Positions 2 to 33,014 of a stretch of 64,000 nucleotides of DNA are shown piece by piece. Under the pieces are notes generated by a model that was not told where the DNA came from, searched no databases, and worked only from the letters and a program-made list of their open reading frames with translations. Position 1 is the first letter of the stretch. Every line of letters starts with the position of its first letter. A program made the translations under genes and the position numbers. This DNA comes from Thiogranum sp. (GTDB lineage Bacteria > Pseudomonadota > Gammaproteobacteria > DSM-19610). The stretch spans positions 1-64,000 of the forward strand of contig JASBSS010000022.1 in the NCBI GenBank assembly GCA_030148805.1, written 5' to 3'.

Positions 2-535
2 TGTCGCGACTGGTTGACGTTGCAGTTGAATCACTCGCTGGCACGCACCGATCTGGCGGTGGTCTCGCGCCTGTATCGGGGGTGCGAGCGCAACGACCGC
101 GCTGCGCTGGCGTACTGGAACGACTATCTGCTCGCCTGCCGAGAAACGCGGGAACTGCGATTGACCGATACCGCCATGGGCCAGGCGCTGGCGCGTCTGC
201 TGGTCGCGCTCGGCCAGGCGGCCCCGGATACCGGGGACACCGCCTTCGCCACCGCGTTCTGTTTCGCCGCGCGCCAGTGGCGGATCGAGTCGCGCGCCTG
301 TGCCCTGGCCTACGTTTGGGCCTGGCTGGACAACCAGGTCGCGGCGGCGACCAAGCTGGTGCCGCTGGGACAGACCCAGGCGCAGCAGCTCCTGGGGCAG
401 CTGCAAGCGGCGGTCCCGGCGGTGCTGACCCTGGCCGCCTCGCTTGGCGACGAAGACATCGGGGCGAGTCTGCCGGCGGTGGCGTTGGCGAGCAGTCGGC
501 ACGAAACCCAATACACCCGTTTATTCAGATCCTGA
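2..535 (+). CDS. ureF: Urease accessory protein UreF, 5' end outside the window
   Basis: UreF is a GTPase-regulating chaperone that works with UreG and UreH/UreD to load nickel into urease in the cytoplasm. The window opens inside the gene; the visible part is 177 residues of a family usually about 220-230 long, so roughly the first fifth is missing. The all-helical, alanine- and leucine-rich protein keeps the family's arginine-rich [20 protein letters not shown]-like stretch and ends in the usual C-terminal tail with a basic residue (RLFRS). It stops 14 bases before ureG. Identification rests on family resemblance together with the adjacent, unmistakable ureG. Confidence 0.88.
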
Positions 536-549
536 GGAAAGAGGCCATC

Positions 550-1206
<657 letters not shown>

Positions 1207-1224: not shown

Positions 1225-1440
1225 ATGAAAAGCAAAAAATTGTTACGCCGCGTCTGTCTGTGGGGCGGGTTGTTTCCCTTGCCCTTGTATGCCCACCCGG
1301 GACCCGAGGGCGAAAGCGCGGCCGTGCACGTGCTGTACCATGCCCTGCAGATCGGAGCTCCCGCGCTGCTGTTGGGGCTGGTTGCGATAGCGCTGTTGCG
1401 CTACCGCCGCCTGCGCATGCGACGGGGAAGATCGGTTTAA
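1225..1440 (+). CDS. Small exported/membrane protein at the end of the urease operon
   Basis: A 71-residue protein preceded by an AAAGGAGAT ribosome-binding site 18 bases after ureG, so it is very probably translated as the last urease-operon gene. It has a basic N-terminus and a hydrophobic segment ending in YAHPG (possible signal peptide cleavage after Ala-His), a short loop with three histidines, a second hydrophobic segment (about 44-59) and a strongly basic tail. The position is one often occupied by HupE/UreJ-type nickel permeases, but this protein is far shorter and has only one or two membrane segments. Function unknown. Its 3' end overlaps the convergent response-regulator gene by four bases. 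Confidence 0.7.
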   Translation: MKSKKLLRRVCLWGGLFPLPLYAHPGPEGESAAVHVLYHALQIGAPALLLGLVAIALLRYRRLRMRRGRSV

Positions 1441-2333
1441 CCCAGTATGCGAATGGCGATGCCGGCCGCGCTGGTGCGGTTCTCGACGCCGAGTTTGGGG
1501 AAGATCTGCTCCAGGTGTTTGTTGACGGTGCGCACGCCCATGCCGAGAATCTGCGAGATGTCCTTGTTGGTCTTGCCGTTGGCGATCCAGAATAACACCT
1601 GCGACTCGCGGGCGGTCAGGTTCAGCGCCCGGCGCAGGCGTTGCTCGCCGGATAACGTTTCGGCGCCGACTTTCAACAGATATTCGCCGTTCGGCTGTTT
1701 GTCGACCAGCGCGATGTCCAGCTGCACCTCGGCATCGCGCAGAGGGAAGGCCTGACCGGCGACCGGCGCGGCCGCCAGCCAGCATCGCAGCTGCGGCGCC
1801 AGCACCGTCGTCAACCAGGGTTGGTCGGCCTTGACCTTGGCGAACAGGGCGTAGCTCTGGGGCGTGGCCCACAGCAGCTGCCCCATGGCGTCGACGGTGA
1901 AGATGTGCTGCCCCACGCTGTCGAGCGCCAGCTGGGCGCTGTGGGTGAGTTGCGCGTTTTTGAGGTGGATTTTCATGCGCGCGAGTAATTCGCTCGGGTT
2001 GACCGGCTTGATCAGATAGTCGACACAGCCCATGCCCAGCCCCTTGAGAACGCTCTGCTCGTCGTCCAGACCGGTCATGAAGATGATCGGGATGGACGCC
2101 AACTGGGTGTCGGCCTTGATATGGCGACAGGTCTCGAAGCCGTCCATATGCGGCATCACCGCGTCGAGCAGAATCATGTCCGGTCTGAGCTTGCGGGCGA
2201 TGGTCAGGGCCTGGCGACCCTCCAGGGCGATGAGGGTATCGATGCCGGCCCGCTCGAGCGTGTCGTTGATCAGGCTGAGGGAATCGGGGGCGTCATCGAC
2301 CACCAGAACCGTGGGCGAAGTGTTATCCGTCAT
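1437..2333 (-). CDS. Response regulator, receiver plus LuxR-type HTH
   Basis: A 298-residue DNA-binding response regulator. The N-terminal receiver (about 7-125) has the acidic pocket VVDDA, phospho-acceptor Asp57 in LLDAVMP and the conserved Lys109 in YLIKP. A middle segment (about 130-225) resembles a degenerate PAS domain. The C-terminal LuxR/FixJ HTH (about 232-298) contains LTARESQVLFWIANGKTNKDIS. It starts inside the last codons of the upstream sensor gene (overlap at 2323-2333), so the pair is translationally coupled and this is the likely cognate regulator. In view of the neighbouring urease genes, control of nitrogen or nucleobase/urea use is a reasonable inference. Confidence 0.92.
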   Translation of the reverse strand: MTDNTSPTVLVVDDAPDSLSLINDTLERAGIDTLIALEGRQALTIARKLRPDMILLDAVMPHMDGFETCRHIKADTQLASIPIIFMTGLDDEQSVLKGLGMGCVDYLIKPVNPSELLARMKIHLKNAQLTHSAQLALDSVGQHIFTVDAMGQLLWATPQSYALFAKVKADQPWLTTVLAPQLRCWLAAAPVAGQAFPLRDAEVQLDIALVDKQPNGEYLLKVGAETLSGEQRLRRALNLTARESQVLFWIANGKTNKDISQILGMGVRTVNKHLEQIFPKLGVENRTSAAGIAIRILG

Positions 2334-5300
2334 TGGCCGGTCCCGGTTGCAGGAAGTTCACCAGTTGTTTGTAGCGAAAATCCTCGACATAGTGGTCGAC
2401 GGTTTTCAATTGCCCGGCCGAGAGCAGGCCCGCGGCACGGACTTCCGCCAGGGTCTGGCGCACGCCTTTGCAGAAACCGCTGTCGGCGTAGCTCACCAGT
2501 TCCCGAATCAGCCGGTGATCGGGAATCTCCAGCGGCGTCTCGTCACTCCCGGCGGATGCGGCGCGCTCGATCGACGCCGGTGGCGCGTCGCTGCCGGTCT
2601 CGTGGATCCATTCCACGTCGAGCAGCGCGCTGAGTGTATCGAGCAGCAGGCGGTGGCTGATCGGCTTCACCAGATAGGCATCGTGGGCCAGCGTGCCGTC
2701 GGCGCCGCGATGCCACTCCTGGGCGTCGGCCGAGATCATGACGATGGGCTGCTCGAGACCTTGCTCGCGCAAGCGGCGCGCCAGCGTAAGCCCGTCCATG
2801 CCCGGCATCGTCACGTCCAGCAGGAACAGATCGGGCGCGCTATGCGCGCTGGCCGCCAGGCAGTCCTCGGCGTTTTTCGCCTCTCGGGTCACGAATCCCA
2901 GCGGCATCAGCAGATCGGAGAGCAGCCCGCGGTGAACGGGTTCGTCGTCGACGATCATCGCCGTGATGGGCCGTCCCCGGTAGCCGATGATGGGTCGCTG
3001 GGTCGGGTCCGCGTCCTGCGGGGTATCGTCGCGCGACAACAGCAGTGTCACCTTGAAGCTGCTGCCCTCCCCGGGCGTGCTTTGTATCTGGAGTTCGCCG
3101 CCCAGGATCTCAGTGAGCAGGCGCACGATGGTGAGCCCCAGGCCGGTGCCGGCCACGTGGGGAACCTGCTCGTTGCGTACCCGCTCGAAGGGATCGAGGA
3201 TGCGCTGGATGTCTCCCGCCTCGATGCCCACGCCGGTATCGCGCACCCAGAATTCGGCGACCTGGTTGCGGTAGCTGATTTCCAGTTCGACATACCCCTC
3301 GACGGTGTATTTGACCGCGTTGGACAGCAGGTTGATCAGAATCTGACGCAGGCGTTTTTCGTCGCTGATGACATGGCGCGGAAGATAGGGCGGTCGTCGG
3401 TAGCGGAACTCGATGCCTTTCGCCTCGGCCTGGCGGGAGAACATCTCCACCAGCTGGTCGATCAGATCGGCGAAGCGTAGCCGGTTGCGATAGATGTCCA
3501 GGCGCCCGGCTTCGATTTTGGAGATGTCCAGCAGCCCTTCGATCAGATCGGTGAGGTATTCCCCGTTGCGCCGCATGATGCGCAGGCCCTTGAGGCATTC
3601 GGGGTCCAGATCGCCGCGTTGGGAAAGCAGTTGGGCATAGCCCAGGATCGACTGCAGGGGCGTGCGCAGTTCGTGGCTGATGCCGGTGAGGTATCGGGTC
3701 TTGGCATTGTTGGCACGTTCGGCCAGTTCCTTTGCCTCCTGCAGCGACTGATCGGTGATCTGATGGGCCTCGATCTCGGCAATCAGCCGCTGGGTCTGGC
3801 GGGTCGATTCCTGCTGGGCCACCTCGCGGCTTTCGCGCGCGAGCAGGAACAACCAGGAAATGACGCCGAAGACGATCATCAGCGTGAAGAACAGCGTCCA
3901 GATGGTTTTCTGCAGCATTTCCATCTGCGCATCGGTGGCCGGTGTCATGTGGAAGTAGACCAGCGACAGCAGGCCCGCCGTGAGCAGATTGATGGTGACG
4001 AAAATCGCGAAAAAATGGCCGACGCGGGAATCGATAAGCGCGCTGTATCGATCGGGCAGGAAGACCCCGAGCAACGCTCGTATCTGTTGCGAGAAGCGTG
4101 CGGAGCGTTTGCAACTGTCCAGGCAACGGGCATCCAGCGTGCAGCACAATGAACAGATCGGTCCCTGGTAGGCCGGGCAATGACTCATGTCGGGCAACTC
4201 GAATTCGGTTTCGCAAATGCAGCACGTGAGCGAAGCGTTCTCGCCGCTGGGCGTGGAGGCGCAGGCCAGCTCGGGGGAGGTGCGGGCGATATAGTAGCGG
4301 CTGCGGGTCAGCAGCGCGATCAACGGCACCAGGATGAAGCACAGGCCCAGGCTGATGAAGTGCGCCAGATTGGCGGCGACCGGGCCGAGGTGACCGAGAT
4401 AGCTGAGGATGCCGACCAGCGAGGCGATGATCATGGAGCCGGTGCCGACCGGATTGACGTCGTAGAGATGGGCGCGTTTGAATTCGCCGTGTGCCGGGCT
4501 CAGTCCGAGGCGCTTGTTGATCATCAGGTCGGCCGACAACGAGGCCAGCCAGCTCAGGGCGACGATGGCGAATACGCCCAGAATCGATTCCAGGGCACGG
4601 TAGATGCCCAGCTCCATGAGCAACAACGCGATGATGACGTTGAACACCAACCACACCACGCGACCGGGGTGACTGTGGGTGAGGCGGGAGAAGAAATTCG
4701 ACCAGGCGATCGAGCCGGCATAGGCATTGGTGACGTTGATCTTCATTTGCGAAACGATCACCATGGTGCCGGCCAGCAGCAGGGAAAAGGTGGGCGACTG
4801 GGTGAGCAGCGTGAACGCCGACTGATACATCCGGGTCGGGTCGGTGGCCTGCTCGAAACCCGCCCCGCCGGTGATCGCGAGGTAGGCCAGGAACGATCCC
4901 AGCAGCATCTTGACGAGGCCCATGAGGATCCAGCCCGGTCCGGCGAGGATCAACCAGAACCACCATCGGCGGGCGTTTTTTTCCGTCTTCTCCGGCATGA
5001 AGCGCAGGTAATCCACCTGTTCGCCGATCTGGGCGATCATGGCGAAGAAGATCGAGGTCGCGGCCCCGAAGAGCCCCAGGTTGATCGTCTCGGCTTGCGG
5101 CACCCCGGGGGGGGCATAGCCGATCCAGTCGTCGATGCGCCGGAATTCGATGGCGAAGACGATCGCCAGCGCGCTGATCTGCACCAGCAGCCAGAAACCT
5201 TGCGTGCCGACCTGGAATTTGCTGATCGCCGAGATGCCGTGGGTGACAATGGGCACCACCGCCAGCGCGCTAATCACATAACCCAGGGCGAGGGGAATGC

Positions 5301-5736
5301 CCAGCATGGCCTGCAACGCCGAGGCCAGGATGGCCGCCTCGATGGCGAAGAAGATGAAGGTGAAGGAGGCGTAGATCAGCGACGTGATGGTCGACCCCAG
5401 GTAGCCGAAACCCGCGCTGCGGGTCAGGAGATCGATGTCCAGCCCATAGCGGGCGGCGTAGTAGCTGATGGGAAAGCCGGTGATGACGATGACCAGGGCC
5501 ACGGTCAACATCGCCCAGAGGGTGTTGACGAAGCCGTACTGCAGGGTCACCGCCGCGGCGATCGCCTCCAGTGCCATGAACGCCGTGGCGCCCAGCGCGG
5601 TCTTGGCCACCTGATCGATGCTCCAGCGGCGCGAGCGCCGGGCGGTGAAGCGCAGGGCGTAGTCCTCCAGCGTCTGGTTGCCGACCCATTTGTTGTATTG
5701 CCGGCGAACGCGAAAGATGTTCTGGCTGGCACGCAT
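2323..5736 (-). CDS. NCS1-type permease fused to hybrid histidine kinase
   Basis: A 1137-residue sensor. Residues about 35-480 form a many-helix membrane domain resembling nucleobase:cation symporter-1 (cytosine/purine/allantoin) permeases. A Cys-rich segment (about 500-545, with C-C-x-x-C, two further single Cys, a C-x2-C-C group and C-x3-C) looks like a zinc-binding or redox knuckle. Two more membrane helices follow (about 570-640), then a HisKA dimerisation domain with GISHELRTP (phospho-His about 689), a HATPase_c domain (DTGVGI, GTGLGL), a receiver (VVDDE-type pocket, acceptor Asp in LLDVTMPGMDG about 975) and a helical tail. The ATG at 5736 is preferred, as the permease-like sequence begins soon after; another ATG at 5814 would add 26 unrelated residues. 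Such fusions suggest transport-coupled sensing; the ligand is not evident. Confidence 0.93.
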   Translation of the reverse strand: MRASQNIFRVRRQYNKWVGNQTLEDYALRFTARRSRRWSIDQVAKTALGATAFMALEAIAAAVTLQYGFVNTLWAMLTVALVIVITGFPISYYAARYGLDIDLLTRSAGFGYLGSTITSLIYASFTFIFFAIEAAILASALQAMLGIPLALGYVISALAVVPIVTHGISAISKFQVGTQGFWLLVQISALAIVFAIEFRRIDDWIGYAPPGVPQAETINLGLFGAATSIFFAMIAQIGEQVDYLRFMPEKTEKNARRWWFWLILAGPGWILMGLVKMLLGSFLAYLAITGGAGFEQATDPTRMYQSAFTLLTQSPTFSLLLAGTMVIVSQMKINVTNAYAGSIAWSNFFSRLTHSHPGRVVWLVFNVIIALLLMELGIYRALESILGVFAIVALSWLASLSADLMINKRLGLSPAHGEFKRAHLYDVNPVGTGSMIIASLVGILSYLGHLGPVAANLAHFISLGLCFILVPLIALLTRSRYYIARTSPELACASTPSGENASLTCCICETEFELPDMSHCPAYQGPICSLCCTLDARCLDSCKRSARFSQQIRALLGVFLPDRYSALIDSRVGHFFAIFVTINLLTAGLLSLVYFHMTPATDAQMEMLQKTIWTLFFTLMIVFGVISWLFLLARESREVAQQESTRQTQRLIAEIEAHQITDQSLQEAKELAERANNAKTRYLTGISHELRTPLQSILGYAQLLSQRGDLDPECLKGLRIMRRNGEYLTDLIEGLLDISKIEAGRLDIYRNRLRFADLIDQLVEMFSRQAEAKGIEFRYRRPPYLPRHVISDEKRLRQILINLLSNAVKYTVEGYVELEISYRNQVAEFWVRDTGVGIEAGDIQRILDPFERVRNEQVPHVAGTGLGLTIVRLLTEILGGELQIQSTPGEGSSFKVTLLLSRDDTPQDADPTQRPIIGYRGRPITAMIVDDEPVHRGLLSDLLMPLGFVTREAKNAEDCLAASAHSAPDLFLLDVTMPGMDGLTLARRLREQGLEQPIVMISADAQEWHRGADGTLAHDAYLVKPISHRLLLDTLSALLDVEWIHETGSDAPPASIERAASAGSDETPLEIPDHRLIRELVSYADSGFCKGVRQTLAEVRAAGLLSAGQLKTVDHYVEDFRYKQLVNFLQPGPANDG

Positions 5737-6278: not shown

Positions 6279-9200
6279 ATGAGTGAAAAACCCTTAGATC
6301 CAGCGAGTTGTTACTGGGCCGGCGTGGGGGCCTCGGCCGGGGGACTTGAGGCCATTCAAGCCCTCTGCCAGTCGCTTCCCGACAGCGCCAACATCATCTA
6401 TATCATCGCGCAGCATCTGTCGCCCCGTCACAAGAGCATGCTCACCGAATTGGTGCAGCGCAGCAGCCGCCTGAAGGTGGAAACCGTCAAAAGCGGGGTC
6501 GAGGCCGTCGCCAATACCATCTACATCACGCCGCCGCAGAAAAATGTCCTGGTCGAAGGCGAGCGCATTGTGCTCGTCTCGCCCGATGAGGAAAACACGC
6601 CCAAACCTTCGGTCAACAAGTTGTTTGTCTCCCTGGCGGAGGAGAAAAAGGAATATGCGGTGGGAATCATCCTCTCGGGCACCGGTTCCGACGGCGCACT
6701 CGGCGTCAAGGCGATCCGGGCCTCCGGGGGGCTGACCATTGTGCAGCAGCCGGAGAGTGCCAAGTACGACGGCATGCCGCGCTCGGCGATTCATACCGAT
6801 TGCGTGGATCTGGTCCTGCAGCCGCGGGAGATCGGGGCGCATCTGGGCAAGCTGACCGCGACGCTCATGCAGGGCAATCGGTTGGCCAGATCGCCGGAAG
6901 TGAAGGACAGCTTCGGTGAACTGATCAACCTGATTCGCCGCCAGTGCGGGGTGTCGTTCAAGGACTATAAGCGCGCCACGTTGCAAAGACGGATCGAGCG
7001 GCGCATGCTGACGCGGGCCATCGGCGAGCTAGACGACTATGTCGCCTATGCGCGCGACAACCCCGACGAGGTCCGATCGCTCTACAAGGATATTCTCATC
7101 TCGGTGACGAATTTCTTTCGGGACACCGAGCCGTTCCGGGTCCTCAGGAAAACCATCGACGAGTTGCTCGAGAACGTCAATCCGCGCGAAGTCGTACGCA
7201 TCTGGTGCGTGGGCTGCGCCACCGGCGAGGAGGCCTACAGTCTTGCCATGCTGCTGGCCGAGGCGGTGGGCGGTCCGGCAAAGCTGGAGGAAAGGAACAT
7301 CCAGGTATTCGCCACCGACGTGGACACCGAGGCGCTCGCGGTGGCGCGCAAAGGGGAGTATCGCGAGTCCACGCTGGTGGATGTCCCCGACGCCTTCGTC
7401 AAGAAGTACTTCGTCAAACGCAAGGACAAGTATCAGGTCATCAAGCCGCTGCGCGATATCATCCTTTTTGCCGGCCACAACATCATCGAGGACCCGCCGT
7501 TCTTGCGGATCAACCTGATCACCTGTCGCAATCTGTTGATCTATTTCGAGCAGAATCTGCAGAAGAAGGTGTTCAACATCTTCCACTACGCGTTGACCCC
7601 AAACGGCTATCTTTTTCTTGGAAAATCTGAATCCACCGGGCAGGTGGGACAGCTCTTTCGCAGCATAAAGACCAAGGAAAAGATCTTCCAGAAGCGCAAC
7701 ACCCTGCCAAACCCCCAGGGTCTCTATATCTCTAATGACCGGAGGCTGCCCACCTCGCACGTAAGCGCGAAACCGGGCAAGCAACCCGAACGTCACACCT
7801 TGCCGGAGTCGCTGATCAGGCTGTTGTCCGACGCCGCGGTGCAGATCGACGATTCGTTCAATATCGAGCATGTCTACGGGGACGTGACGCCCTATCTCAG
7901 CATCGCCAGCGGCAAGCCGCAGTGGAATCTCGTCGATATCATCAACGACGTGCACAAGCAGGAGATCCGGGCGCTGGTGTTCAAGGCGCTGCGCACCGGT
8001 GAGATCGCCCAGGGTCAACCGCGGAAGATCAAAATCGACGGTCAACTCTATCTCGACCGGATAAAGGTGTATCCGCTGGAGACCGAGGCGTCCAAGGAAC
8101 GCACCATGCTGGTGTGCTTTGAAAAACTCAGGCAGGCCAAGCAGCCGCCGGCACGTGGCAAACGCGAGGTCGACGAGGAGAAGATCAAGGAGCTCGAGGA
8201 CGAGCTTGCCACCGCGCGCGAACACCTGCAGACCGTCATCGAGGAGCTGGAGACCTCCAACGAGGAACTGCAGTCGATGAACGAGGAGTTACAGTCGTCC
8301 AACGAGGAGTTGCAGTCCTCCAACGAAGAGCTGGAGACGACCAACGAAGAGCTGCAATCGGCCAACGAAGAGTTGATCACCATCAACGACGAGCTGAACA
8401 ATAAGACGGCGGCTCTGGAAAGAGCCACCGGTCAGCTTGTCAGCATCAAGAATTCGCTGGATTTCCCGCTCGTGGTGGTCGACGATCAGAATCAGATAAT
8501 CCGGGCGAATCATCAGGCGGGGGTGTTTTTCCGGATTTCGGAGGAGCGGGGTGACCTGCTCAAGCTGTTGCCCCCCGAACTGCCGGTCGAGCAGATCGCC
8601 GAGCTGGTGAAGACCGTGAAGGCGCGTGGCGAGGCGGCCAGCCTGCAACTGGAAATCGGCAGCCGATTTTACCACCTGCACATCACCCCCTATCGTCAAA
8701 ACGGAGAGACGGTCATCGGTGCGGTGCTCAGTTTCATCGAGAACACCCGGGCGGTGAGGCGTACCCAGCAGCTCATCGAGAGCCGTAAGAAGGCGCAATC
8801 GGCCAACTTCGCCAAAAGCGAGTTCCTAGCCAACATCAGTCATGAAATCCGGACACCGTTGAATGCGATATGCGGGGTGGCGGAAATCTTCAGGCGCAAC
8901 TTCGATGTTCCCGACAAGCGCGAGCGCCTGTTGAACGTGTTGGACAATTCCACCACCAGTCTGAAGAGCCTTCTGGATGACGTGCTGGATTATGCCAAGC
9001 TCGAATCGGGGCAATTGAGCCTAGAGTACGCCAACGTGGCGATAAGGGAAGTCATAGAAAAACTGATTGATGCCTATTCAATCCAGTCGGCGGACAAGAA
9101 TCTTTCCCTGGTCACGAAAATGGACAAGAATCTGCCGGACAAGCTGATCGGAGACCCGCTCAGGATCCAGCAGGTCCTGTCCAATCTGCTGTCCAATGCG

Positions 9201-9944
9201 GTGAAGTTCACCGAGCAAGGCAAGATCGAGCTGGAGGCGACGGGGCAGGGGCGAAAGCATCACTACGAGCTGCGACTCAGCGTCCGGGATACCGGCATCG
9301 GGATGAGCCCCGAGGAGATTTCGCGCATCTTCGAGAAGTTCACCCAGACCGACGCCTCGATCTCCCGCCGTTACGGCGGTACCGGCCTGGGGCTTTCGAT
9401 CGTCAAGGAGTTGGTCAATCTCATGGAAGGCGATATCCAGGTCGAGAGCACCAAGGGGGTGGGAACCGAATTCACGCTCAGCTTGCCGCTCAAGCTTCCG
9501 GGCAAGGGTCGGGAAGAGGCGAAGCAGAAACCGGAAACGCCGTTCGTCATCAATCCACGGCAGGCGGAGGACAACCCCATTCTGGTCGTCGAGGACAACG
9601 AGTCCAACATTTTCGTCGTGACCTCGTTTCTCGACGAACTGGGTTGCGTCTACGATGTCGCCCGCAACGGCAAGGAGGCGCTGGTGTTCGCCAAAAACCA
9701 GTTCTACCCGCTCATTCTGCTCGATCTGCAAATGGACGAAATGAACGGTTTCGAGTTTCACCAGGCGTTGAAGCAGCGCCAGGCGAACCGCAAAGGCAGG
9801 CACGTCTCCAATGTCATAGCGGTCAGCGCCCATGTGGAGCGCGATATCGTCGAGCAATGCAAGTCGTCGGGCATGCAGGAGTTCATCGCCAAACCCTTGC
9901 AACTGAGCAAGCTCAAGGATGTATTGAGCCGATACCTTCAATGA
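6279..9944 (+). CDS. CheB-CheR-PAS-histidine kinase-receiver chimera
   Basis: A 1221-residue multidomain signalling protein. CheB-type methylesterase domain about 8-190, with the Ser in GASAGG, the His in AQHLSP and the Asp in GTGSDG. CheR methyltransferase domain about 205-480, with RRIERRM and the SAM-binding loop VGCATGEEAYS. A coiled coil at about 645-715 is built of NEELQSx heptads. Then a PAS domain (about 725-820), HisKA with SHEIRTP (about 853), HATPase_c (DTGIGM, GTGLGLS) and a receiver with acceptor Asp in LLDLQMD (about 1147). No membrane segment, so cytoplasmic. CheB/CheR fusions of this sort modify or sense chemoreceptor-like partners; none lies nearby. It overlaps the next gene by ATGA. 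Confidence 0.93.
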   Translation: MSEKPLDPASCYWAGVGASAGGLEAIQALCQSLPDSANIIYIIAQHLSPRHKSMLTELVQRSSRLKVETVKSGVEAVANTIYITPPQKNVLVEGERIVLVSPDEENTPKPSVNKLFVSLAEEKKEYAVGIILSGTGSDGALGVKAIRASGGLTIVQQPESAKYDGMPRSAIHTDCVDLVLQPREIGAHLGKLTATLMQGNRLARSPEVKDSFGELINLIRRQCGVSFKDYKRATLQRRIERRMLTRAIGELDDYVAYARDNPDEVRSLYKDILISVTNFFRDTEPFRVLRKTIDELLENVNPREVVRIWCVGCATGEEAYSLAMLLAEAVGGPAKLEERNIQVFATDVDTEALAVARKGEYRESTLVDVPDAFVKKYFVKRKDKYQVIKPLRDIILFAGHNIIEDPPFLRINLITCRNLLIYFEQNLQKKVFNIFHYALTPNGYLFLGKSESTGQVGQLFRSIKTKEKIFQKRNTLPNPQGLYISNDRRLPTSHVSAKPGKQPERHTLPESLIRLLSDAAVQIDDSFNIEHVYGDVTPYLSIASGKPQWNLVDIINDVHKQEIRALVFKALRTGEIAQGQPRKIKIDGQLYLDRIKVYPLETEASKERTMLVCFEKLRQAKQPPARGKREVDEEKIKELEDELATAREHLQTVIEELETSNEELQSMNEELQSSNEELQSSNEELETTNEELQSANEELITINDELNNKTAALERATGQLVSIKNSLDFPLVVVDDQNQIIRANHQAGVFFRISEERGDLLKLLPPELPVEQIAELVKTVKARGEAASLQLEIGSRFYHLHITPYRQNGETVIGAVLSFIENTRAVRRTQQLIESRKKAQSANFAKSEFLANISHEIRTPLNAICGVAEIFRRNFDVPDKRERLLNVLDNSTTSLKSLLDDVLDYAKLESGQLSLEYANVAIREVIEKLIDAYSIQSADKNLSLVTKMDKNLPDKLIGDPLRIQQVLSNLLSNAVKFTEQGKIELEATGQGRKHHYELRLSVRDTGIGMSPEEISRIFEKFTQTDASISRRYGGTGLGLSIVKELVNLMEGDIQVESTKGVGTEFTLSLPLKLPGKGREEAKQKPETPFVINPRQAEDNPILVVEDNESNIFVVTSFLDELGCVYDVARNGKEALVFAKNQFYPLILLDLQMDEMNGFEFHQALKQRQANRKGRHVSNVIAVSAHVERDIVEQCKSSGMQEFIAKPLQLSKLKDVLSRYLQ

Positions 9945-16240: not shown

Positions 16241-17320
16241 ATGCGAAGGTTTTCCATCGAAGGCACCGAGATTCACGACGATACTGATTGCTACGTTGTT
16301 GCGGAAATAGGAAACAATCATCAAGGAAATCTGGAAACCGCCATGGAAATGTTTCGCGTGGCAAAAAAATGCGGGGCTAACGCGGTAAAACTGCAGAAGC
16401 GTGACAACAGGAATCTGTATACGAAGGCGATTTATCACTCGCCTTACGCCCATAAAAACAGTTTCGGACGGACTTACGGCGAGCATCGGGAATTTCTCGA
16501 GTTCGGTCGAAGCGAATACCGGGAGCTCATGGACTACGGTAGGGAGATCGGGGTGACGGTGCTGGCTACGGCGTTTGATCGGGGCAGTGCGGACTTTCTC
16601 GAGGAACTGGATGTGGCTGGTTTTAAAGTCGCCTCTGGCGACCTGAGGAATGTACCGCTGCTCAGGCATATCGCCGCATTCGGGAGGCCGATGATTATCA
16701 GTACTGGCGGTGCCTGTATGGACGATGTCAACAGGGCCCACGACGTCATCATGCCGATTAACAACCAACTTGCGATTTTGCAGTGCACGTCGGGATACCC
16801 GGCGGAATTCGACGAGCTTAATCTTGGTGTCATCACAACCTACCGCGAGCGCTTTCCCAATGTGACCGTTGGCTTATCCTCTCACGACAACGGTATCGCC
16901 ATGGCAATCGCAGCTTACATGCTGGGTGCTAGAATCGTGGAGAAACACTTTACTCTCAATCATACCTGGAAGGGAACTGACCATGCTTTTTCTCTTGAGC
17001 CCGACGGTTTTCGCAAGCTGGTTCGCGACCTGAGTCGATTGCGGATGGCGATAGGCGACGGCGTGAAGCGTGTCTATCACAGCGAAGCCTCGGCGATGCT
17101 GAAGATGGGGAAAAAACTGGTCGCGGCGCGGGACTTGCCTAAAGGCCATACCATTCGGCTGGAGGATATCGCCATCAAGTCTCCCGGCGATGGTCTGGCG
17201 CCGTACGATCTCGACAAAGTCGTCGGGCGCGTCACCTGTCAGTCGCTGGCTCATGACGAGGATATCTGTATTGAGCGGCTTAATGGTAGCGAGAGCTGGC
17301 AACAGCAGGCAGCCTCTTGA
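16241..17320 (+). CDS. neuB: NeuB-family nonulosonate (sialic-acid-like) synthase
   Basis: A 359-residue enzyme of the NeuB family, which condenses phosphoenolpyruvate with a hexosamine such as ManNAc to form sialic acid or a related nine-carbon sugar. The TIM-barrel domain (about 1-285) has EIGNNHQGN near the start, KLQKRD, the KVASGD substrate loop, STGG and the GLSSHD and EKHFTLN segments. An antifreeze-like SAF domain follows (about 290-355, KKLVAARDLPKGHTI). A strong AGAAGGAGAAGG site precedes the ATG. First gene of a seven- or eight-gene operon; the exact sugar is not predictable. Confidence 0.93.
   Translation: MRRFSIEGTEIHDDTDCYVVAEIGNNHQGNLETAMEMFRVAKKCGANAVKLQKRDNRNLYTKAIYHSPYAHKNSFGRTYGEHREFLEFGRSEYRELMDYGREIGVTVLATAFDRGSADFLEELDVAGFKVASGDLRNVPLLRHIAAFGRPMIISTGGACMDDVNRAHDVIMPINNQLAILQCTSGYPAEFDELNLGVITTYRERFPNVTVGLSSHDNGIAMAIAAYMLGARIVEKHFTLNHTWKGTDHAFSLEPDGFRKLVRDLSRLRMAIGDGVKRVYHSEASAMLKMGKKLVAARDLPKGHTIRLEDIAIKSPGDGLAPYDLDKVVGRVTCQSLAHDEDICIERLNGSESWQQQAAS

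Positions 17321-31184: not shown

Positions 31185-33014
<1,830 letters not shown>

Follow-up and report, generated by a model that had tools for sequence, protein, structure and literature searches.

The window analysed here, 64,000 nucleotides of Thiogranum sp. (GenBank assembly GCA_030148805.1, contig JASBSS010000022.1, positions 1 to 64,000), revealed a gene for a hybrid histidine kinase of 1137 residues that carries a transporter domain at its N-terminus. We consider this protein quite probably a transceptor, i.e., a kinase for which an NCS1-derived transporter domain acts as the sensor, with urea and/or short-chain amides (formamide, acetamide) as the most likely ligands. One scan of genome contigs resulted in 198 relatives, from which 80 kinase loci were kept; a selection from the window and these loci gave the 45 aligned rows on which all counts out of 45 are based.

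Architecture of the kinase and its regulator

The following features were identified in the kinase region:

2323..5736, minus strand: gene for the transporter-fused hybrid histidine kinase, 1137 residues (open frame; Pfam HisKA, HATPase_c and Response_reg)
4285..5736, minus strand: NCS1-like transporter domain, residues ~1-484 (AF2 model; best PDB matches CodB and Mhp1; hhalign 99.8%)
4711..4752, minus strand: residues 329-342, SQMKINVTNAYAGS, aligned with transmembrane helix 8 of Mhp1 (cation and ligand site)
4102..4227, minus strand: eight-cysteine knuckle, residues 504-545 (invariant cysteines in 45/45 rows)
3838..4026, minus strand: residues 571-633, two additional helices presumed to lie in the membrane (AF2 secondary structure)
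3037..3702, minus strand: dimerization/histidine phosphotransfer and catalytic domains with phospho-acceptor His688 (Pfam; H, N and G boxes)
2635..2958, minus strand: receiver domain with Asp974 (Pfam; motif)
1437..2333, minus strand: cognate response regulator of 298 residues, receiver plus LuxR-type helix-turn-helix (Pfam Response_reg and GerE)
550..1206, plus strand: ureG, urease accessory protein (TIGR00101, 336 bits)
2..535, plus strand: ureF, partial, 5' end cut by the contig end (PF01730, E 6.7e-37; frame)

The kinase frame starts with the ATG at 5736 and reads through to its stop. The single chain of permease, cysteine segment, two helices and hybrid kinase described in the original prediction, which had been made from the sequence without database searches, was borne out by this frame, Pfam and the AF2 model, in the order transporter domain, knuckle, helices, kinase. 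Pfam placed HisKA at residues 679-744, HATPase_c at 792-900 and the receiver domain at 927-1034, and gave no match in the first 670 residues. Across 75 full-length family members, the H box was found in 73, the N box in 73 and the G2 box in 71. The regulator gene shares 11 overlapping bases with the kinase gene, and a regulator homologue was located directly 3' of the kinase in 74/74 loci with at least 1.2 kb there, so that the predicted coupling to a LuxR-type regulator gained support as well. With its boxes, receiver Asp and adjacent regulator, the system is a hybrid histidine kinase/LuxR two-component pair.

An NCS1-like transporter domain

A profile search with the window protein alone cannot show an NCS1 relationship; the assignment was made because fold and relatives support it. 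The full protein gave no Pfam match to PF02133 or any other transporter family at E ≤ 1, PF02133 was matched in 0/45 rows, searches of Pfam, NCBIfam and PDB sequences with the permease part returned nothing usable, and alignments A1 and A3 found no NCS1 chain among PDB sequences. Among solved structures, CodB (E 3.5e-9) and Mhp1 (E 3.6e-8) were the best Foldseek matches of the AF2 model, which covers residues 1-634 (mean pLDDT 79.8, pTM 0.81). Comparison by VIA resulted in a Z of 34.8 over 396 residues for CodB and of 30.4, 27.9 and 25.7 over 428-429 residues for three Mhp1 entries, the next-ranked row (25.4) being tied with the lowest of these. Furthermore, hhalign of A1 against A4, which consists of three NCS1-type proteins (two matching PF02133), gave a probability of 99.8 and an E of 3e-28 over 426 columns, and two of ten stand-alone relatives matched PF02133 above its cut-off of 23.5 (L132 with 31.8 bits, L150 with 37.7 bits). 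Alignment A2 matched CodB (9.7e-16) and Mhp1 (4.6e-10) and contains NCS1 rows, so it was used for residue mapping only. Judged from the model and these profiles, the domain appears to be NCS1-like or NCS1-derived, at some distance, and not a canonical member; of the NCS1-type permease originally proposed, fold and profile similarity to NCS1-type proteins stood, and a PF02133 match in the window protein did not.

The site residues known for Mhp1 were transferred to the sensor by sequence alignment A2 and not from a measured pocket. According to this mapping, the Mhp1 ligand positions Q42, W117, Q121, W220 and N318 correspond to F53, F129, E133, F230 and N337, of which F53, F129, E133 and N337 are invariant in 45/45 sensors and position 230 varies. 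In the stand-alone permeases (9/9), position 53 is Tyr, and 129, 133 and 337 are identical to the sensors. The Na2-site residues S312/T313 of Mhp1 are aligned with K332/I333, which are invariant in 45/45 sensors and, like N337, common to 9/9 stand-alone permeases; the whole stretch 330-342 is invariant in 45/45 rows. By the same alignment, the Ser/Thr side chains of the Na2 site are absent from sensors and 9/9 stand-alone permeases, a criterion that is presumably not universal among NCS1 proteins. Sodium coupling as in Mhp1 thus seems unlikely, and the pocket does not look like that of Mhp1, yet appears conserved rather than decayed. Conservation of the NCS1 ligand residues, as proposed for a check, turned out mixed, as three of the five Mhp1 positions hold other residues, which are themselves invariant in the sensors.

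The knuckle and the two added helices

The window kinase harbors cysteines at positions 505, 506, 508, 520, 528, 531, 532, 538 and 542, and all except C506 are invariant in 45/45 rows, in agreement with the conservation suspected at about 500-545. The same eight-cysteine segment forms the end of the stand-alone permeases L131 and L152, which lie beside formamidase genes. In most other stand-alone permeases, also where they are part of urease operons, just four cysteines remain (counterparts of 505, 508, 528 and 531); from two actinobacterial permeases, the pattern is gone. Because permeases without a kinase also carry it, the knuckle is a feature of the transporter family and not of the kinase, and its proposed role as a kinase-specific metal or redox input lost ground. 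The eight- versus four-cysteine pattern suggests two metal sites. The helices that follow were predicted at 571-597 and 602-633.

In regard to its fold, the knuckle gave no significant match, the best in Foldseek being a RING finger (E 0.34), and the best VIA hit of the linker model (Z 7.0) fell on the helices, so no knuckle fold is claimed. Homology to CRIPT was considered and rejected: A1 against PDB gave only weak zinc-protein matches (CRIPT-type E 0.053), and the Pfam CRIPT family matched 9/45 rows with 8.7e-5 at best, which was not taken as homology.

Distribution and gene neighborhood

Genes for urease (ure), urea ABC transport (urt) or formamidase/amidase (fmd) were detected in the flanks of 57/80 kinase loci, fetched up to 10 kb on each side, and in 42/55 loci with full flanks, the nearest such gene lying at a median distance of 1.4 kb. 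Among the 57 loci, ure genes were found in 37, urt genes in 31, both in 11 and fmd genes in two; the assignment of neighbors to families was verified for representative sequences (UrtA, UrtB, UreA, UreB, UreD, UreE, UreG). Nineteen of the 23 loci without local urea genes were tested for UrtA and UreC elsewhere (L028, L039, L050 and L076 being left out), and the genome contained UrtA over cut-off in 16 and UreC in 17.

A class sample of 369 genomes contained 18 with the family (17 with a fusion or fragment, G279 with the stand-alone form only); in this sample, it was not found in two other genomes of the window's genus. UrtA over cut-off was present in 14/18 family-positive versus 61/351 family-negative genomes (Fisher p 1e-7) and UreC in 15/18 versus 66/351 (Fisher p 2e-8), both tests ignoring shared descent and genome size; either one was found in 17/18 versus 70/351. 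In a phylum sample, 57/398 genomes matched at E ≤ 0.001, a few of these being weak matches to other NCS1-type transporters. The family was also found on plasmids: kinases of Klebsiella, Peteryoungia and Thioclava plasmids are directly divergent from urtABCDE, the Klebsiella plasmid (IncFIB/IncFII) additionally harboring a formamidase gene, and on S. meliloti pSymB three genes separate the kinase from divergent urtABCDE. In the plasmid collection, 342 Klebsiella records matched the domain, and the two that were read contained one fusion and one stand-alone permease.

In the window itself, ureG and the cut ureF lie on the opposite strand, beyond the regulator as seen from the kinase. Both had been named as neighbors, with the correction that ureF is truncated, the window edge being base 1 of its contig. 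The assembly to which the window belongs revealed no UreC, and the remaining urease cluster may therefore be lost in a gap. The nitrogen-scavenging role suggested from this position gained support from the urease/urt/amidase linkage, the context of the stand-alone permeases and the palindrome positions described below. Degenerate binding sites together with homologues lacking nitrogen genes had been named as grounds for abandoning that role; the link to nitrogen genes was found, and the cation site is changed but invariant.

A candidate operator

One palindrome, TACGTCA-NN-TGACGTA, was repeatedly found in front of urtA, ureD/ureA, fmdA and the kinase gene. Among 91 kinase upstream regions, TACGT-N6-ACGTA was counted in 11 and GCACC-N5-GGTGC in 12 (shuffle maximum 3), and the former also in 27/37 urtA upstreams (shuffle maximum 2). 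In the 2.12 Mb of locus sequence, a weight matrix built from 11 kinase-upstream sites, so that most urtA sites were not used in building it, matched 47 sites with 18 bits or more, versus one in one mononucleotide shuffle. Forty-two of these sites are followed within 600 bp by urtA, ureA, ureD, fmdA or the kinase (31 at urtA, 10 of them also at the kinase; five at the kinase only; four at ureA or ureD; two at fmdA). The exact TACGTCANNTGACGTA occurred in 5/369 genomes of the class sample, four of them family-positive (4/18 vs. 1/351), and among UrtA-positive genomes in 4/14 with the family versus 0/61 without, while a reversed control pattern matched four genomes, none family-positive. Only 3/34 scanned ureD upstreams carried the palindrome, many of these ureD genes lying inside operons; other dyads, e.g., TTCTG-N6-CAGAA, were detected there. 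From these sequence comparisons, the palindrome is the best candidate for the regulator site in the urt- and fmd-linked branches, a reading that does not extend to the window's branch. The family is thus linked to, and shares an operator sequence with, urt, ure and fmd genes, the window genome contributing the ureF/ureG linkage only.

The dyad GCACC-N5-GGTGC was found upstream of the kinase in L003, L005, L008, L016, L031, L036 and others.

Stand-alone permeases and the tree

Several gene orders revealed a permease of the same kind without a kinase domain. In urease operons, these are permease-ureE-F-G-J-D-A-B-C on an Acinetobacter ursingii plasmid, ureD-A-B...E-F-G-permease in Klebsiella, and urease genes...ureF-ureG-permease-NicO (nickel transporter) in G279. 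In genome G263, kinase and regulator are divergent from permease-fmdA-fmdB-amidase, Methylovirgula harbors fmdB-fmdA, kinase-regulator-permease and an aliphatic amidase, and the Moraxella and Tsukamurella permeases lie beside or near fmdA.

From 153 collected domain sequences, one in three of the fused ones and a set of chosen rows entered a first tree of 72 domains, without L097 and L101, which duplicate L132 and L131; this tree could not be rooted with NCS1 proteins (end branches of 7.7 and 10). For the second tree of 66 domains, L143, L144 and the duplicates L087, L091, L092 and L094 were removed, and L151, fused in the first tree owing to an over-long open frame, was counted as stand-alone. 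Here, 56 fused and 10 stand-alone domains fell on two sides of one branch (SH-aLRT ≥ 95), a split that is consistent with a single joining event; this tree is midpoint-rooted only, so it does not fix the order of joining versus loss.

A broader proposal, to which we give an even chance, has two parts: that the fusions form a new transceptor class, derived from one ancestral joining of an NCS1-derived urea/short-amide permease with a kinase, distributed today among alpha-, beta- and gammaproteobacteria as well as conjugative plasmids and equipped with its own operator, and that the stand-alone sister group, whose members in urease operons of Acinetobacter and Klebsiella bear the annotation allantoin or cytosine permease, represents unrecognised NCS1-type urea/amide transporters. 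These permeases may thus be mis-named, and the 56 fused and 10 stand-alone domains provide a natural comparison.

Proposed mechanism and alternative explanations

In the proposed transceptor, occupancy of the LeuT-type core by ligand, or its translocation, would move the transporter, and the zinc-type knuckle, presumably on the cytoplasmic side, together with the two added helices would pass this motion to the kinase. His688 would become phosphorylated, and the signal could reach the LuxR-type regulator directly or via receiver Asp974. The regulator would then activate urea/amide uptake (urt) and hydrolysis (ure, fmdA, amiE) through TACGTCA-NN-TGACGTA and, in some species, its own gene as well. 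The candidate operator makes urea sensing directly testable, and on Klebsiella plasmids a likely urea sensor would be placed beside urt genes.

The ligand could instead be a nucleobase, hydantoin or allantoin, the classical NCS1 class, with urea genes downstream of purine breakdown. The NCS1 fold, the Asn kept at the N318 position and the annotation of stand-alone relatives as 'allantoin permease' or 'cytosine permease', presumably by homology, would fit such a sensor. Purine, allantoin or hydantoin pathway genes were, however, not among the 20 named neighbor clusters nor in the annotated plasmid regions read, save for one Azospirillum locus with a xanthine-dehydrogenase-family cluster; in 45/45 sensors, Mhp1 Q42, W117 and Q121 are replaced by F, F and E, respectively, and amidase and formamidase neighbors fit small amides. 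The nucleobase or allantoin ligand of the original prediction is therefore less well supported, with urease, urt and formamidase/amidase genes as neighbors, and we regard it as improbable. A general nitrogen-status or ammonium sensor that lies near urea genes by chance appears just as improbable: GCACC-N5-GGTGC in 12/91 kinase upstreams resembles the NtrC box, and nitrogen limitation may feed in at this point, but amt, glnK and gln were not among the 20 named clusters, the promoters with the palindrome are those of urt, ure, fmd and kinase genes, and stand-alone permeases occur within urease operons.

A somewhat better, though still small, chance is left to a transporter domain that is a dead scaffold, the signal entering via the knuckle (metal, nickel, redox) or via a partner such as the stand-alone permease. 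Eight invariant cysteines would suit this explanation, urease requires nickel, and a stand-alone relative adjoins the kinase in Methylovirgula, G263 and one Acinetobacter record. A dead domain would be expected to decay, however, and the sensors keep most positions aligned with the ligand and cation sites without variation and have them in common with the stand-alone permeases; the knuckle also ends permeases without a kinase.

Some observations weigh against the urea/amide transceptor. Thirteen of the 55 full-flank loci lack a local urea gene, the genomes of L026 and G137 have neither UrtA nor UreC over cut-off, and an Azospirillum kinase as well as the Streptomyces and Arthrobacter stand-alone permeases have no urea or amidase gene within ~8-9 kb. 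Many of the loci are related to each other. Five of the 47 matrix sites have no target in the gene list, among them that of L156 between divergent kinase and stand-alone permease frames, and the exact copy in G197 is separated from urtA by over 1 kb, with the kinase located on another contig. The palindrome is absent from the window, its TACGTNANNTNACGTA form is absent from the whole own assembly, and no site in front of the window kinase scores higher than -0.9 bits; control of ure genes via the palindrome is therefore not extended to the window.

Related loci and other genes of the window

Some relatives deviate from the common arrangement. G137 holds two transporter-kinases (L133, L134) without the usual regulator beside them. 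L146 (8662-11346) and L147 (8498-11155) encode shorter fusions of 885-894 residues with fmdA nearby, and the usual regulator homologue was not found in the stretch read. L148 (8856-10712, plus strand) encodes a relative of the kinase half (match from residue 531 on) without a transporter domain, and a regulator homologue (58%) lies on the opposite strand.

In the window's own genome, contig C25 (L142) carries an urt-like ABC operon with an aliphatic amidase, formamidase FmdA and an FmdB-like frame; it also encodes a further regulator of this type (34% identity), with no adjacent transporter-kinase within the 20 kb read. Further window genes, all on the plus strand, are:

6279-9944: CheB-CheR-PAS-hybrid histidine kinase fusion, 1221 residues, divergent from the transporter-kinase
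16241-17320: NeuB-family gene with SAF domain
31275-33014: cytochrome d1 heme domain plus c-type cytochrome domain (PF02239), nirS-like, a possible denitrification locus

Comparison with known systems

Kinase-regulator pairs beside urt genes are listed in genome papers. Table 4 of a Dechloromonas aromatica study lists a histidine kinase of 1131 residues and a CheY-like receiver beside UrtA (PMC2907700), and in Ectopseudomonas guguanensis a hybrid kinase and a LuxR regulator lie beside urtABCDE (PMC13296017); the likeness is by description, the available parts of both papers giving annotation only and no transporter domain, ligand or operator. Likewise by description, a 'cytosine permease' (msmeg_3402) and a formamidase (msmeg_3403), adjacent by number, appear in a table of a nitrogen-starvation transcriptome (PMC4222082). 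According to the available part of a preprint, Klebsiella lineage CG307 may, when in the urinary tract, benefit from a urea ABC transporter gene cluster (PMC13060141), and from its description this cluster is probably of the same kind as the kinase-linked plasmid urt cluster. A literature search with subscription journals mostly outside its reach did not reveal any paper on the function of an NCS1-kinase fusion, nor one on an NCS1 urea transporter. GrtK (PMC12918730) was set aside as a comparator, as the available text describes different domains.

With CodB and Mhp1 (PF02133), the family shares the overall fold and the Asn at the N318 position; it differs in the Lys-Ile at the Na2 site, in other pocket residues and in lacking a PF02133 match.

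Closest in design are the SLC5/STAC sensor kinases CbrA, CrbS and RpuS, which, according to the available parts of the respective papers, also have a LeuT-fold transporter fused N-terminally to a histidine kinase (PMC13022988, PMC9100948, PMC5715377), in a nutrient-linked two-component system with a small domain in between (PMC13022988). In contrast, the nearest folds of the window family are NCS1 proteins and not SLC5: neither the window protein nor the 45 rows gave a Pfam match to an SLC5 domain, and SLC5-type folds came out behind CodB and the best Mhp1 entries. In CbrA, the STAC domain is described as docking under the transporter core (PMC13022988). The window family has the knuckle and two helices where STAC would be; Pfam scans of the window protein and the 45 rows gave no STAC match, and the linker model was without significant structural match. 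As far as the available sources describe it, CbrA is tied to histidine and carbon/nitrogen balance, and the window family to urea/amides.

The Amt-type ammonium sensor kinase Ks-Amt5 likewise represents a transporter recruited as the sensor of a fused kinase for a small nitrogen compound, without PAS, HAMP or STAC, as given in the available text; there, transport is lost, and binding is kept and triggers the kinase (PMC5764959). Its Amt fold belongs to another transporter superfamily, and no receiver domain is described in that text (PMC5764959). After SLC5 (CbrA) and Amt (Ks-Amt5), the family presented here would thus add a third type of transporter to those coupled with a kinase.

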